The notes beneath the pieces were generated by a model. It had not been told where the DNA came from. It did not search any database and worked only from the letters and a program-made list of their open reading frames with translations. The position numbers were made by a program, and so were the translations under genes. Of a DNA stretch of 37,764 bases, positions 3,765 through 37,501 are shown piece by piece (position 1 is the stretch's first letter; every line of letters begins with the position of its first letter). The stretch is from NCBI GenBank assembly GCA_012522755.1, contig JAAYJV010000150.1:1-37764 (forward strand). The letters run 5' to 3'. The stretch comes from Candidatus Hydrogenedens sp. GTDB lineage: Bacteria; Hydrogenedentota; Hydrogenedentia; Hydrogenedentales; CAITNO01.

Positions 3765-4535
3765 TCACAGGCTGATATTGCGCTGCACGATAAAGTCATC
3801 AGCACGGCGATCAAAAAACTGCCTCAACCGGTCCACTTGCGATGCGGCCGCTTCTTCCAGGGTGCCGCAGAATACGACCTCACCCAGATCCAGCATCAGA
3901 ATGCGATCGGCCGCCAGACGGATGGAGTCCAGCTCATGGGTGACAATGACAAAGGTGGTCTGTAACAGAGATTTCAGCTTCAGAATCATATGATCCAGCC
4001 CGGCCGCCATGATGGGATCCAGCCCTGCGGAGGGTTCATCAAAATAAACAAGATCGGGATCCAGTGCGATGGCCCGGGCCAGTCCCGCCCGTTTGCGCAT
4101 GCCTCCCGACAGCTCCGAAGGCATGAGATGCTGTGCGTGGGCAAGACCCACCAGGCTCAATTTATAACGCACGAGTTCATCGATCAGTTGCGGATCCACT
4201 CCGCCGAATTCACGCATGGGCATGGCCACATTTTCACCCACTGTCATGGAGTTGAAAAGGCCGCTCGACTGAAAAGCGATGCCGATGGTGCGCTGCATGG
4301 CACTCATTTCCTCCTCGTCCATGGCAGCCAGATCCCGGCCCCTATACATGATATGCCCGCTCGTGGGTTTCAACAGGCCGCACATCTGTTTCAGAAGCGT
4401 ACTCTTCCCGCAGCCACTGCCTCCGATGATCATGAATATTTCGCCCTTCTTCACTTCAAAGGAGACCCCGTCCAGTACTTTATGGGTACCATAGTGAGAG
4501 ACGAGTTTATCAACTGTGATCATCGTATCGCTCAT
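3765..4535 (-). CDS. Mla-type ABC transporter ATP-binding protein
   Basis: A 256-residue cytoplasmic ATPase. Walker A is GGSGCGKST (Lys44); the signature is LSGGMRKR, followed by FDEPSAGLDPI as Walker B and D-loop. The LSGGMRKRAGLARAIALDP stretch is characteristic of MlaF-type lipid transporters. It powers the STAS-permease encoded just upstream (17-base gap) and works with the MCE protein downstream. Direction of transport (retrograde or anterograde) cannot be read from sequence. Length and motifs are complete. Confidence 0.9.
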   Translation of the reverse strand: MSDTMITVDKLVSHYGTHKVLDGVSFEVKKGEIFMIIGGSGCGKSTLLKQMCGLLKPTSGHIMYRGRDLAAMDEEEMSAMQRTIGIAFQSSGLFNSMTVGENVAMPMREFGGVDPQLIDELVRYKLSLVGLAHAQHLMPSELSGGMRKRAGLARAIALDPDLVYFDEPSAGLDPIMAAGLDHMILKLKSLLQTTFVIVTHELDSIRLAADRILMLDLGEVVFCGTLEEAAASQVDRLRQFFDRRADDFIVQRNISL

Positions 4536-4552
4536 GAATCTGTGTGAAATCC

Positions 4553-5638
4553 TTATCCCAGAATATAGTAAAAAATGACTGCAAAAACAATATCAATGCA
4601 GATCAGCGAAAAAATGTCCATTACCACAGCGCGCGTCGTCATGAGCCCCACACCCCGGGATCCGCCCTTCACACGAAAACCGTTGTGACAGCCGATCATG
4701 ACAATGGCGATGGCGAAGAAGAAGGTCTTCAACATGCCCTGCATGATATCGTCCATGGCCGCCGATTCCAGCGTCTGGTTATACCACATGAAGGGCCGGA
4801 AACCAAGAACAAAAATGCCCCACACCGCACCGCCCAGAACCCCGGAGATGAGTCCCAGTGTTGCCAGACAGGGGAGAACCACCAGCATGGCGAGGAGCTT
4901 CGGCGTGACCAGATATTGCGCAGGACTGATGCCCATGCCCCGCAGTGCATCAATTTCTTCCTGAACGGTCATGGTCGCCAGTTCCGCGGCAATGGCTGCG
5001 CCGCTCCGGGCCGATACCACCACGGCCGTCATGATGGCCGCAAGCTCCCGGGCGAAGCCGATGAAAATCAGATTGGCCACGTAAATCTGGATGCCGAAAG
5101 ACTCCACCTGTTTGGCCGAGAGCATGGCGATGATGAGCCCCAGCAGAAAGTTCATGAGACAGACAATGCGCACAGCCCGCACGCCCATCTCGTGGACTTC
5201 ATCCATGAAGGCATTGAAGCGGAAGCCTCTTCCTTCAAAGGGTGCGATGAGTGTCCAGTAAATCGTATCCACACAGAGGGAGATGAATTCGCCTGTTTCG
5301 TCTTTGACGGAAAGGATGAGCGCCCCCAGACTTTCCAGAGGGCCGGGACTTCGCGCCGCTTCGGGCGGAGAACTCTGAAGAGAGGGGGCGAGCATCTCCA
5401 GAAAGTCGCACAGTGATTCCCGCTGTCCTTTCCACGAAAAGGGCACATCCTTTCTGCGTGCAAATCCGGATGCCTTGATGATCCAGGCGCCGCCGAAAGA
5501 GTCAATGCTTTCTGTGGCTGAAAAATCCAGGATCAGGGAAGTGTTGCGGCGGCTCCACTGCTTCAACAGAGCTTTGTACATGGCCGCACCGCCATCCTGA
5601 TCCAGTATTTCCGGGCAAAGGACAATGCATTCACTCAT
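4553..5638 (-). CDS. MlaE-family lipid ABC transporter permease with N-terminal STAS domain
   Basis: About 361 residues. The first ~105 look like a STAS domain (TSLILDFSATESIDSFGGAW), the part supplied by the separate MlaB protein in E. coli. The rest is an MlaE permease with about five to six hydrophobic segments and the family core SARSGAAIAAELATMTVQEEIDALRGMGISP split over residues near 220-250. I chose the ATG at 5638 because GGAAGG lies nine bases upstream; an ATG at 5647 has no room for a ribosome-binding site. With this start the gene overlaps the end of ligA by eight bases, so translation is probably coupled. The fused STAS layout is seen in several diderm phyla. Confidence 0.87.
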   Translation of the reverse strand: MSECIVLCPEILDQDGGAAMYKALLKQWSRRNTSLILDFSATESIDSFGGAWIIKASGFARRKDVPFSWKGQRESLCDFLEMLAPSLQSSPPEAARSPGPLESLGALILSVKDETGEFISLCVDTIYWTLIAPFEGRGFRFNAFMDEVHEMGVRAVRIVCLMNFLLGLIIAMLSAKQVESFGIQIYVANLIFIGFARELAAIMTAVVVSARSGAAIAAELATMTVQEEIDALRGMGISPAQYLVTPKLLAMLVVLPCLATLGLISGVLGGAVWGIFVLGFRPFMWYNQTLESAAMDDIMQGMLKTFFFAIAIVMIGCHNGFRVKGGSRGVGLMTTRAVVMDIFSLICIDIVFAVIFYYILG

Positions 5639-33449: not shown

Positions 33450-34922
33450 TCAGGTTGAATCCTCTTCTTTCAGGAAAGGGAGATGGTCACGGCGTCCTTT
33501 GAGGCGTCGGAAATCCCCTTCAATACAGTCGGCTATACGGGCCCGCTCATCAGGGAGATGGTCACATAAAAAGCGGAACAGATATTCGGCCAGCCGTACC
33601 AGTGGAATGCCGTAAGAGCGCTTTTCTTTCTCCCAGATCTGCTCCGAGAAACGCTCAAAAACATGGAAAGGCGACGGGGGCAAAGTCCGCAACAGCGCCA
33701 GACTCTCCGGAAAATTCCCATGATTATGATACAAATCAAAATATTTTGCAAAACGCTTCATTTTTTGAAGAGCTGAAAAAGAGAAGTGATCATTCTGAAG
33801 AATTTCATAGGGCGGCTGAGAATCATAAACGGTGGAGGCATCACTCAGACTGCTCAGGGGAGTTCCCGGTAAATTTTTCAGGAGACCCAGCTGGATTTCC
33901 TGAAGATTCAGAGTAACCAGTTGGTTGAAACCCTCCGCAAAGGAATCCGGACTTTCTCCCGGAAGACCGAAGATGAGGTCACCATGAATCTGACAGCCCG
34001 AATGCTCCCGCAACCAGCGGAGATTGGACAGGGAAGCCTCTATCCCCTGATTGCGGCGGATTCGTTTTTGTATCTCCTGGTTTATACTCTGGATGCCCGC
34101 TTCCAGATGAAGCACATCGGCGGGGAATGCCGCCAGAAGTTCCAGACTGTCCGGGGGCAGACGGTCGGGCATGATCTCAAAATGCAGATGCAATTCACCG
34201 ATTTCAGGCCTCTTCAGAAAAAAATCCAGGATGGCGTGCATGCGTTTCAGATCCACATTGAAAGTCCGGTCGATGAACTTGAAATTGCGGACGCCCCGGG
34301 CAATGAGTTTTTCCATGGAGCCAAGGAAAGGCTCCAGAGAAAAATAACGCAGATCTGAAGAGGCGCCGGAAAGACAAAAAGCACAGCGGTAGGGACAGCC
34401 CCGCGAAGCTTCCACATAAATAACCCGATGGGCAATATCCTGTTCCGTATAGAGATCATAAGGATCCGACAATTTTTCCAGGTCAACAGGAGGCGCTTCA
34501 ATGACTCTCTTTTCAGGTTTACGGCCTTGTGCAAGATCATGAACAAGACTGTAGAAAGCCTCCTCGCCTTCGCCCCGGATAATATAATCAGCCCATTGAG
34601 CCGTCGGAGAAAGGGGAGAGGAGCCTGACATTTCAGGGCCGCCGCATACCAGGGTGGTCGCCGGGCTTACACGTCGTAAAATTTCCGCTGTCCGCGCCAT
34701 GAGCCCGGCATTCCAGATATGGACGCCCAGTCCCGCAATGCGCGGTTCATGAAGCAAAATGCTTTCCGCAATCTCATGGGCCGACTGCTGAATTGTGAAT
34801 TCAAGAAGCTGCGTATCTTTCTGATACTGTCCGAGATTGGCCTGAAGGCATCGCAGCCCGAAAGCGGTATGGGCATAACGGGCATTGGCTGTGGCCAGAA
34901 CGATGGACAGGGAATCAGACAT
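33450..34922 (-). CDS. B12-binding-domain radical SAM protein (DUF4080 type)
   Basis: A 490-residue cytoplasmic enzyme. Residues 1-140 form a cobalamin-binding-like Rossmann domain (IVLATANARYAHTAFGLRCL, RIAGLGVHIWNAGLMA, TLVCGGPEMSG). The radical SAM core follows, with Cys176-x3-Cys180-x2-Cys183 (ASRGCPYRCAFCLSG) for the [4Fe-4S] cluster, and then a C-terminal region with the layout of DUF4080. Such proteins cleave SAM to a 5'-deoxyadenosyl radical; no substrate is known for this subgroup. It lies three bases after the upstream lipoprotein gene and nine before the M28-like gene, so it is firmly part of the minus-strand operon. Confidence 0.88.
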   Translation of the reverse strand: MSDSLSIVLATANARYAHTAFGLRCLQANLGQYQKDTQLLEFTIQQSAHEIAESILLHEPRIAGLGVHIWNAGLMARTAEILRRVSPATTLVCGGPEMSGSSPLSPTAQWADYIIRGEGEEAFYSLVHDLAQGRKPEKRVIEAPPVDLEKLSDPYDLYTEQDIAHRVIYVEASRGCPYRCAFCLSGASSDLRYFSLEPFLGSMEKLIARGVRNFKFIDRTFNVDLKRMHAILDFFLKRPEIGELHLHFEIMPDRLPPDSLELLAAFPADVLHLEAGIQSINQEIQKRIRRNQGIEASLSNLRWLREHSGCQIHGDLIFGLPGESPDSFAEGFNQLVTLNLQEIQLGLLKNLPGTPLSSLSDASTVYDSQPPYEILQNDHFSFSALQKMKRFAKYFDLYHNHGNFPESLALLRTLPPSPFHVFERFSEQIWEKEKRSYGIPLVRLAEYLFRFLCDHLPDERARIADCIEGDFRRLKGRRDHLPFLKEEDST

Positions 34923-36388: not shown

Positions 36389-37093
36389 ATGAACCTGCGT
36401 ATCCTCAAAACCGTATATGTTGAAACAGCCCGGCGACTGCCGACTCCCGCCGACGATGGTACCGTCCGCTACAGTGGCAACAGCTATAAGATCGATCTTA
36501 TCGCCGAAGGACCGGTTCATCCGGAGTATGGCTGGGTAGTGGATTATACCGATTTGAAGGCCCTTTTCGAACCCATCCGAAAACAACTCGATCATCAGTG
36601 TCTGGATGATATCCCCGAGCTCAGGGACAGCCATGAACCCCGGGAGATTGAAGCCTGGATCAACAGCAGTCTGCAACCCTGGCCCTCCTGGTTCGCAGGT
36701 GTGAAGGTATCTTTTGCCGTGTCTCCGGGATTTCATCCACGCAGGCTTCCGCCCGATCCCCGGCACGAGCTGCCGGCCAGATTGGCCTTTACTTTTTTCG
36801 CCGCCCAGTCATTGCCACAATTGCCTGAGGAGCATCCCTGCCGCAAACTTCACGGACACAGCTATCAGGTGGAGATTGCCGCCCGGGAAGATGATGAGTT
36901 GGAAAGAATCGCCCGCCTTCTCTTCGACCGCTTCGACAACCGCTATCTGAACAACCAGCCCGGTCTGGAACAGGCCACCTCGGAGCGTATAGCAGCCCGG
37001 GTATGGAAAACGATGCTGGAAGAGGGACTCACGCCTCTCTGTGTGGTCATCCAGGAAACCCCCTCCAACCGCTGCCATTATTTCGGCGGCTAG
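36389..37093 (+). CDS. Tandem QueD/PTPS-family protein with split active-site residues
   Basis: 234 residues made of two T-fold (6-carboxytetrahydropterin synthase/6-pyruvoyltetrahydropterin synthase) halves. N-terminal half (1-115): VETARRLP and SGNSY lie where zinc-binding EAAHRLP and HGHSF should be, so all zinc His are lost; however GWVVDYTDLK and Asp68-His69 (LDH) are kept. C-terminal half (120-234): Cys151, His155-Gly-His157 and Glu223 (QET) are kept, but the first zinc His is Gln140, the GWxxDF strand is missing and the Asp-His dyad reads Asp183-Asn184. In this family the Cys and the Asp-His come from adjacent subunits, so the fusion may build one composite site. Possible role in queuosine or pterin synthesis. 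No ribosome-binding site is obvious. Confidence 0.78.
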   Translation: MNLRILKTVYVETARRLPTPADDGTVRYSGNSYKIDLIAEGPVHPEYGWVVDYTDLKALFEPIRKQLDHQCLDDIPELRDSHEPREIEAWINSSLQPWPSWFAGVKVSFAVSPGFHPRRLPPDPRHELPARLAFTFFAAQSLPQLPEEHPCRKLHGHSYQVEIAAREDDELERIARLLFDRFDNRYLNNQPGLEQATSERIAARVWKTMLEEGLTPLCVVIQETPSNRCHYFGG

Positions 37094-37138
37094 ACCCGGG
37101 ATTGCTGCGGTGCCGCCGGACAGAAAGTGTATTGTGCC

Positions 37139-37501
37139 ATGCGTTTCAGTGTTACTCCGGAAAAACAAAAACAACTGGAAACACGTATGGCCGCTTGCGG
37201 ACTGAAGGAAGGGGACTTCGAAGAAAGCTTTTCCGCCAGCAGTGGGCCGGGCGGACAGAAAGCCAATAAAACCGCCACCTGTGTCACCCTTCTCCACCGT
37301 CCCAGTGGTATTGCCGTGAAAATGCAGAAAGCGCGTTCCCAGTCACTGAACCGATATTATGCCCGGAAACGGCTCTGTGAACTGATGGAAGCAAAACTGC
37401 TGGGCCGCGAATCACCCGCGGAAATGCAACGCGAAAAAATACGCCGACAAAAAGCCCGAAGGAAACGGCGGAGTGATAAGAAATCAGGGGATAGGGAGTA
37501 G
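37139..37501 (+). CDS. Class I release-factor-like protein with GGQ motif (RF-1 domain only)
   Basis: About 120 residues. The RF-1 domain carries the peptidyl-tRNA hydrolysis motif SGPGGQKANK (Gly38-Gly39-Gln40), followed by VKMQKARSQSLNRYYARKRL and a very basic C-terminal tail (EKIRRQKARRKRRSDKK). It lacks the codon-recognition domains of RF1/RF2. Stand-alone GGQ proteins of this kind (ArfB/YaeJ and related) rescue stalled ribosomes, with the basic tail in the empty mRNA channel. The short form with 'FSASSGPGGQKANKTATCV' fits the 'peptide chain release factor-like' group. An upstream in-frame GTG at 37127 is an alternative start with a slightly better ribosome-binding site. It is 45 bases after the QueD-like gene, so one transcript is likely. 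Confidence 0.82.
   Translation: MRFSVTPEKQKQLETRMAACGLKEGDFEESFSASSGPGGQKANKTATCVTLLHRPSGIAVKMQKARSQSLNRYYARKRLCELMEAKLLGRESPAEMQREKIRRQKARRKRRSDKKSGDRE

Follow-up and report, generated by a model that had tools for sequence, protein, structure and literature searches.

What can a protein of the queuosine pathway do when each of its two domains lacks essential parts that the other retains? The window analysed here, a stretch of 37,764 nucleotides from a Candidatus Hydrogenedens genome, carries near its end an open reading frame in which Pfam PF01242 (PTPS) matches in two stretches (E 1.4e-25 overall) and in which a genome-wide domain search likewise finds two separate PTPS domains. An earlier note on this DNA had proposed that these complementary halves form one complete composite site, a proposal that our analysis supports at the level of sequence. 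We consider it probable that the protein is the organism's only 6-carboxytetrahydropterin synthase (QueD), a bimodular enzyme with one composite N/C site per chain and a dead reciprocal site.

Two PTPS domains with complementary residues

The gene and its features, with the evidence for each, are as follows.

36389..37093 (+), putative tandem (bimodular) QueD of 234 aa; open reading frame and translation, two PTPS domains, the genome's only PTPS protein
36389..36748 (+), N-terminal QueD half, residues 1-120; Pfam and AlphaFold domain limits
36431..36433 (+), Arg15, at the position of the first zinc His (lost); alignment
36473..36481 (+), Ser29-Gly30-Asn31, where the zinc-binding HGH has been lost together with the Cys position before it; alignment
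36530..36547 (+), GWVVDY (48-53), kept, with Trp49 and Asp52 invariant in 58 sequences; alignment
36590..36595 (+), Asp68-His69 charge-relay dyad, kept (His69 in 58/58, Asp68 in 57/58); alignment
36749..36778 (+), linker, approximately residues 121-130; secondary structure of the model
36779..37090 (+), C-terminal QueD half, residues 131-234; Pfam and AlphaFold domain limits
36806..36808 (+), Gln140, where the first zinc His would be, most members of the phylum having Gln here through a single origin on the tree; alignment and tree
36839..36841 (+), Cys151, catalytic Cys, kept (57/58); alignment
36851..36859 (+), His155-Gly-His157 zinc motif, kept (58/58), CxxxHGH being the PTPS-I signature; alignment, PMC5041015
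36887..36895 (+), point in the chain at which ordinary QueD has 11 further residues, the GWxxD segment; alignment with viral QueDs
36935..36940 (+), Asp183-Asn184, the dyad with its His lost; alignment
37055..37057 (+), Glu223, pterin-anchoring Glu, kept in 55/55 sequences that reach the position; alignment

The earlier note had described an N half without zinc His and Cys that keeps Asp68-His69 and GWVVDY, and a C half that keeps Cys151, HGH and Glu223, has Asn184 for the dyad His and lacks the strand; translation and alignment bear out every one of these residues. In the N half, Arg15 and Ser29/Asn31 replace the zinc ligands, and both Cys and Glu are missing. The C half carries the CxxxHGH signature as C151-RKL-HGH and, when aligned with 35 single-domain viral QueDs, has an 11-residue gap where their G(W)xxD(F/Y) segment sits. 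Neither domain contains three zinc His, the C half having Gln140, His155 and His157 and the N half none, and the Asp-His dyad and the Glu are both present in the protein as a whole, the former in the N half (Asp68-His69) and the latter in the C half (Glu223). Gln140 is indeed where the earlier note had placed it, at the first zinc His, and the trait is clade-wide rather than specific to the window. Against the TIGR03367 QueD equivalog model the protein scores 82.4 bits, below the curated cut-off of 89.25.

Conservation of two composite sites

Two composite sites can be defined across the halves. Site A combines Trp49, Asp52, Asp68 and His69 of the N half with Cys151, His155, His157 and Glu223 of the C half; site B combines the N-half zinc His at positions 15, 29 and 31 with a C-half Asp183-His184. 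Across an alignment of 58 tandem sequences, 459 of the 461 cells of site A hold the canonical residue; the earlier note had suggested looking for co-conservation among homologues, and the residues of its proposed site do not drift. For site B the figures are 202 of 205 cells in sequences from other families but only 6 of 78 in those from the window's family; in this family nothing of site B remains, and the remaining metal site consists of two His and a Gln. Glutamine is a zinc ligand in human glyoxalase I. The Cys of CxxxHGH and the Glu occur in the N half of none of the 58 sequences (three have a stray loop Cys), and no aligned member has a GWxxD strand in its C half. Many or all relatives share Gln140 and lack the C-half strand; what sets the window's family apart is that its N half has lost the zinc His and its C half the dyad.

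Losses that strike both parts of one composite site only are what one would predict were the N-half dyad to work with the C-half Cys and the C-half dyad with the N-half metal site. One could instead suppose that the C half is the enzyme on its own, with another base standing in for the dyad, and that the N half is a structural pseudo-domain completing the barrel, since Cys, HxH and Glu are all kept in the C half and the N half has no metal ligands. We regard this as unlikely, however, because the N half hardly varies at Asp68-His69, Trp49 and Asp52, even in the window's family, where the C half has no dyad, and a mere scaffold would not preserve exactly these residues.

Among the 42 homologues outside the window's family, a second zinc site, made of three N-half His and the C-half Asp-His and devoid of Cys and Glu, is near-invariant. 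Its residues must serve some purpose there, perhaps as a structural metal site at the interface.

Order of events

On a tandem tree for which one row of family f4 served as the outgroup, the losses of the N-half Cys and Glu and of the C-half strand predate all sampled members, and a single event suffices to explain how the C-half zinc His became Gln. The N half lost its zinc His, and the C half its dyad, at the root of the window's family, with support of 86/69; isolated partial losses are seen in L040 and in L049/L053. As the main co-loss within the phylum is a single event, it does not make for strong statistics, and a co-loss test on the tree had only two usable independent pairs and no power. 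When the halves were treated separately, the N halves formed one group (100/99) and so did the C halves (100/99), which points, on these sequences, to a single duplication no later than the base of Hydrogenedentota.

Genome context and distribution in the phylum

The host genome (4.0 Mb, 95% complete) contains no PTPS protein other than the tandem, and the queuosine-pathway genes folE, queE, queC, queF, tgt and queA are all found in it, its own QueF being of the short, unimodular type (open frame of 175 aa). Clustering with queuosine genes is seen in the sister family (f11) and not in the window, where none occurs among the scanned neighbours of the tandem gene. At three sister-family loci (L179, L180, L183) the gene order is queE - tandem queD - queF, with queC lying a few kb off, about 4 kb beyond the cluster at L179. 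Such surroundings argue strongly for a role at the QueD step. In the window, a small RF-1-domain (GGQ) protein, ribosome-rescue-like, is encoded 33 bp downstream on the same strand (37127-37501, +); upstream, on the other strand, lie genes for a B12-binding radical SAM protein with a DUF4080 domain (33450-34922, -), a short protein without family match and a lipoprotein-like protein. A search of Rfam found no riboswitch near the tandem gene.

The same context bears on whether the protein makes a related pterin for another pathway, as a PTPS-II or PTPS-III-like enzyme of folate or biopterin metabolism rather than of queuosine. The functionally mixed nature of the PTPS family (PMC5041015), the score below the QueD cut-off and Gln140 would all fit such a role, but CxxxHGH is the PTPS-I motif and lacks the PTPS-III Glu (PMC5041015), relatives have the queE-queD-queF cluster, and the genome offers no other QueD beside the rest of the pathway, so that we find this reading quite improbable.

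The tandem, or its pieces at contig ends, was found in 60 of the 68 phylum genomes examined, and a search of these 68 genomes with the tandem profile reported no stand-alone QueD. The eight genomes without a tandem match (G021, G033, G045, G050, G052, G053, G059, G062) all have a tgt match and six of them a full queC match, so most of these absences may be assembly gaps. The closest named relative, from Candidatus Hydrogenedentes bacterium ADurb.Bin170, is 74% identical across all 234 residues, and comparison with it indicates purifying selection on both halves (pN 0.175, with a pS of 0.74 that marks synonymous sites as saturated). Given this selection and the conservation in 60 of 68 genomes, what the earlier note observed is not a product of chance. 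Nor, we think, is there much chance at all that it is a decaying, inactive QueD in an organism that salvages preQ0 or preQ1: many canonical residues are absent from each half, yet purifying selection acts on both, what has been lost belongs to a single complementary set and the residues of the other set do not vary, and queE, queC and folE are present.

Tandem QueDs on Streptomycetaceae plasmids

A protein search of plasmids gave three one-piece tandem matches in Streptomycetaceae, each an unannotated gene.

L187:3941-4642 (NZ_CP108665.1), unannotated tandem QueD gene, Streptomycetaceae plasmid
L188, approximately 3998-4678 (NZ_CP108785.1), unannotated tandem QueD gene, Streptomycetaceae plasmid
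L189, approximately 3946-4597 (NZ_CP108509.1), unannotated tandem QueD gene, Streptomycetaceae plasmid

All three N halves have ATR (the zinc His lost), a short Cys-less loop and DGH or DGN for HGH, and keep GFVxDF and LDH. All three C halves keep the first zinc His, Cys, HGH and SET, lack the GWxxD strand and have LDG or VHG at the dyad. Nearby lie folE and a queE-like radical SAM gene, joined in Embleya by queC; the cluster is of the preQ0 type.

The Streptomycetaceae C halves group with those of Hydrogenedentota (100/100) on very long branches, and for the N halves the tree neither resolves nor rejects such a grouping. The two forms may therefore share a tandem ancestor. Because the Streptomycetaceae tandems fall outside the window's family, the complementary losses seem to have arisen separately in the two. 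Among the matches listed for viral contigs, the Hydrogenedentota profile gave only those of about the size of a single QueD and the Streptomyces profile gave none; phage records gave half-length matches only.

Predicted structure and assembly

Given the window protein and an alignment of 36 relatives, AlphaFold predicts two T-folds (pLDDT 90, pTM 0.81), and the pTM means that domain placement is confident in that run; for a sister protein modelled from two sequences only, pTM was 0.52. The best match among solved structures in Foldseek is E. coli QueD, with a TM-score of about 0.78 over the QueD chain, each half of the model resembling it, and no tandem PTPS was found among the solved structures.

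The earlier note took as its premise that the catalytic triad of this family is shared between subunits, and the literature contains that statement: the title of Burgisser 1995, cited in PMC7546909 and PMC2229834, names an "intersubunit catalytic triad motif". PTPS is a dimer of trimers in which neighbouring monomers enclose each site (PMC7546909). The N and C domains might sit side by side in one ring or be stacked across two. With three subunits to a PTPS ring, N and C domains that alternate around it could not close the circle. Strand order and the short linker may hint, as no more than a guess, at neighbours in the same ring and a site within one chain. The "pseudo-dimer" of the earlier note is a guess at the assembly.

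Discussion

From the observed anatomy, conservation, pathway context and stepwise series of losses, we infer the following course of events. An old tandem duplication would have given two T-fold halves that came to divide the labour. On the simplest view, the C half would supply the metal ligands His155 and His157, probably aided by Gln140, together with the catalytic Cys151 and the pterin-anchoring Glu223. From the N half would come the charge relay, Asp68-His69, and the strand with GWVVDY, so that this half takes the role that a neighbouring subunit has in ordinary QueD. The reciprocal site would be dead, its Cys, Glu and one strand having gone before the divergence of all sampled members and its zinc His and dyad in the window's family. 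With that site dead and the N half acting as the neighbour, the N/C interface would form one complete site. It is on this model that Asp68-His69 should meet Cys151, and do so within one chain, and that the tandem should bind metal and act as a QueD.

The model is supported by the presence of a single PTPS protein beside the other pathway genes, by the phylum-wide occurrence of the tandem and by the sister cluster; the retention of site A as against the loss of site B as a set in the window's family, the Streptomycetaceae parallel, the PTPS-I signature, the intersubunit triad of PTPS, the proven QueF precedent and the confident two-domain prediction also speak for it. Several points weigh against it. 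Gln140 means that the metal site is not canonical, the TIGR03367 score lies under the curated cut-off, three-subunit PTPS rings fit badly if tandem N and C domains must alternate, the conserved site B residues of other members are not explained by a dead site, and the two-sequence model reached a pTM of 0.52. We propose only tentatively, and with some doubt, the combined picture in which Streptomycetaceae and one family of Hydrogenedentota each reached the fully complementary state, making two arrivals or more, the Hydrogenedentota family works with a His-His-Gln metal site and no three-His zinc site, and the other Hydrogenedentota kept a Cys-less second zinc site for a separate purpose.

Together these proteins form a graded natural series, from two fuller halves through a Gln-substituted metal site to strictly complementary halves, for how a homo-oligomeric enzyme with subunit-shared sites may become a bimodular one, and they provide a natural separation-of-function set for the PTPS intersubunit triad. 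They also carry a warning for annotation, as QueD of Hydrogenedentota scores below the curated model. Our literature search, in which few subscription papers were covered, found no published description of a tandem QueD.

Comparison with known systems

With canonical QueD/PTPS-I (E. coli QueD, 4NTK, 4NTM; TIGR03367) the window protein shares the fold, CxxxHGH, Glu, Asp-His and pathway context. It differs in having two domains per chain with the parts divided over the halves, Gln140 for the first zinc His and a C half without GWxxD, and in scoring below the curated cut-off. In the Streptomycetaceae tandems the halves follow each other in the same order and complement one another with the same residues, but identity is only about 30% and the C half retains the first zinc His. 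Uricase and GTP cyclohydrolase IB also place two T-fold domains in one chain, but have other active sites, and their whole-chain TM-scores (at most 0.29) are too weak to argue either way about the arrangement of the domains.

A parallel case is the bimodular QueF of the V. cholerae and E. coli type, which has tandem T-folds, belongs to the same pathway and divides essential parts over its domains, the QueF motif lying in one and Cys and Glu in the other, so that they meet at the interdomain interface (PMC5372742). QueF is a nitrile reductase, with other chemistry and an unrelated duplication. A split QueD site would be akin to that of QueF and, as far as we could find, has not been described for QueD in the literature; with this bimodular parallel in the same pathway, the tandem QueD is directly testable.
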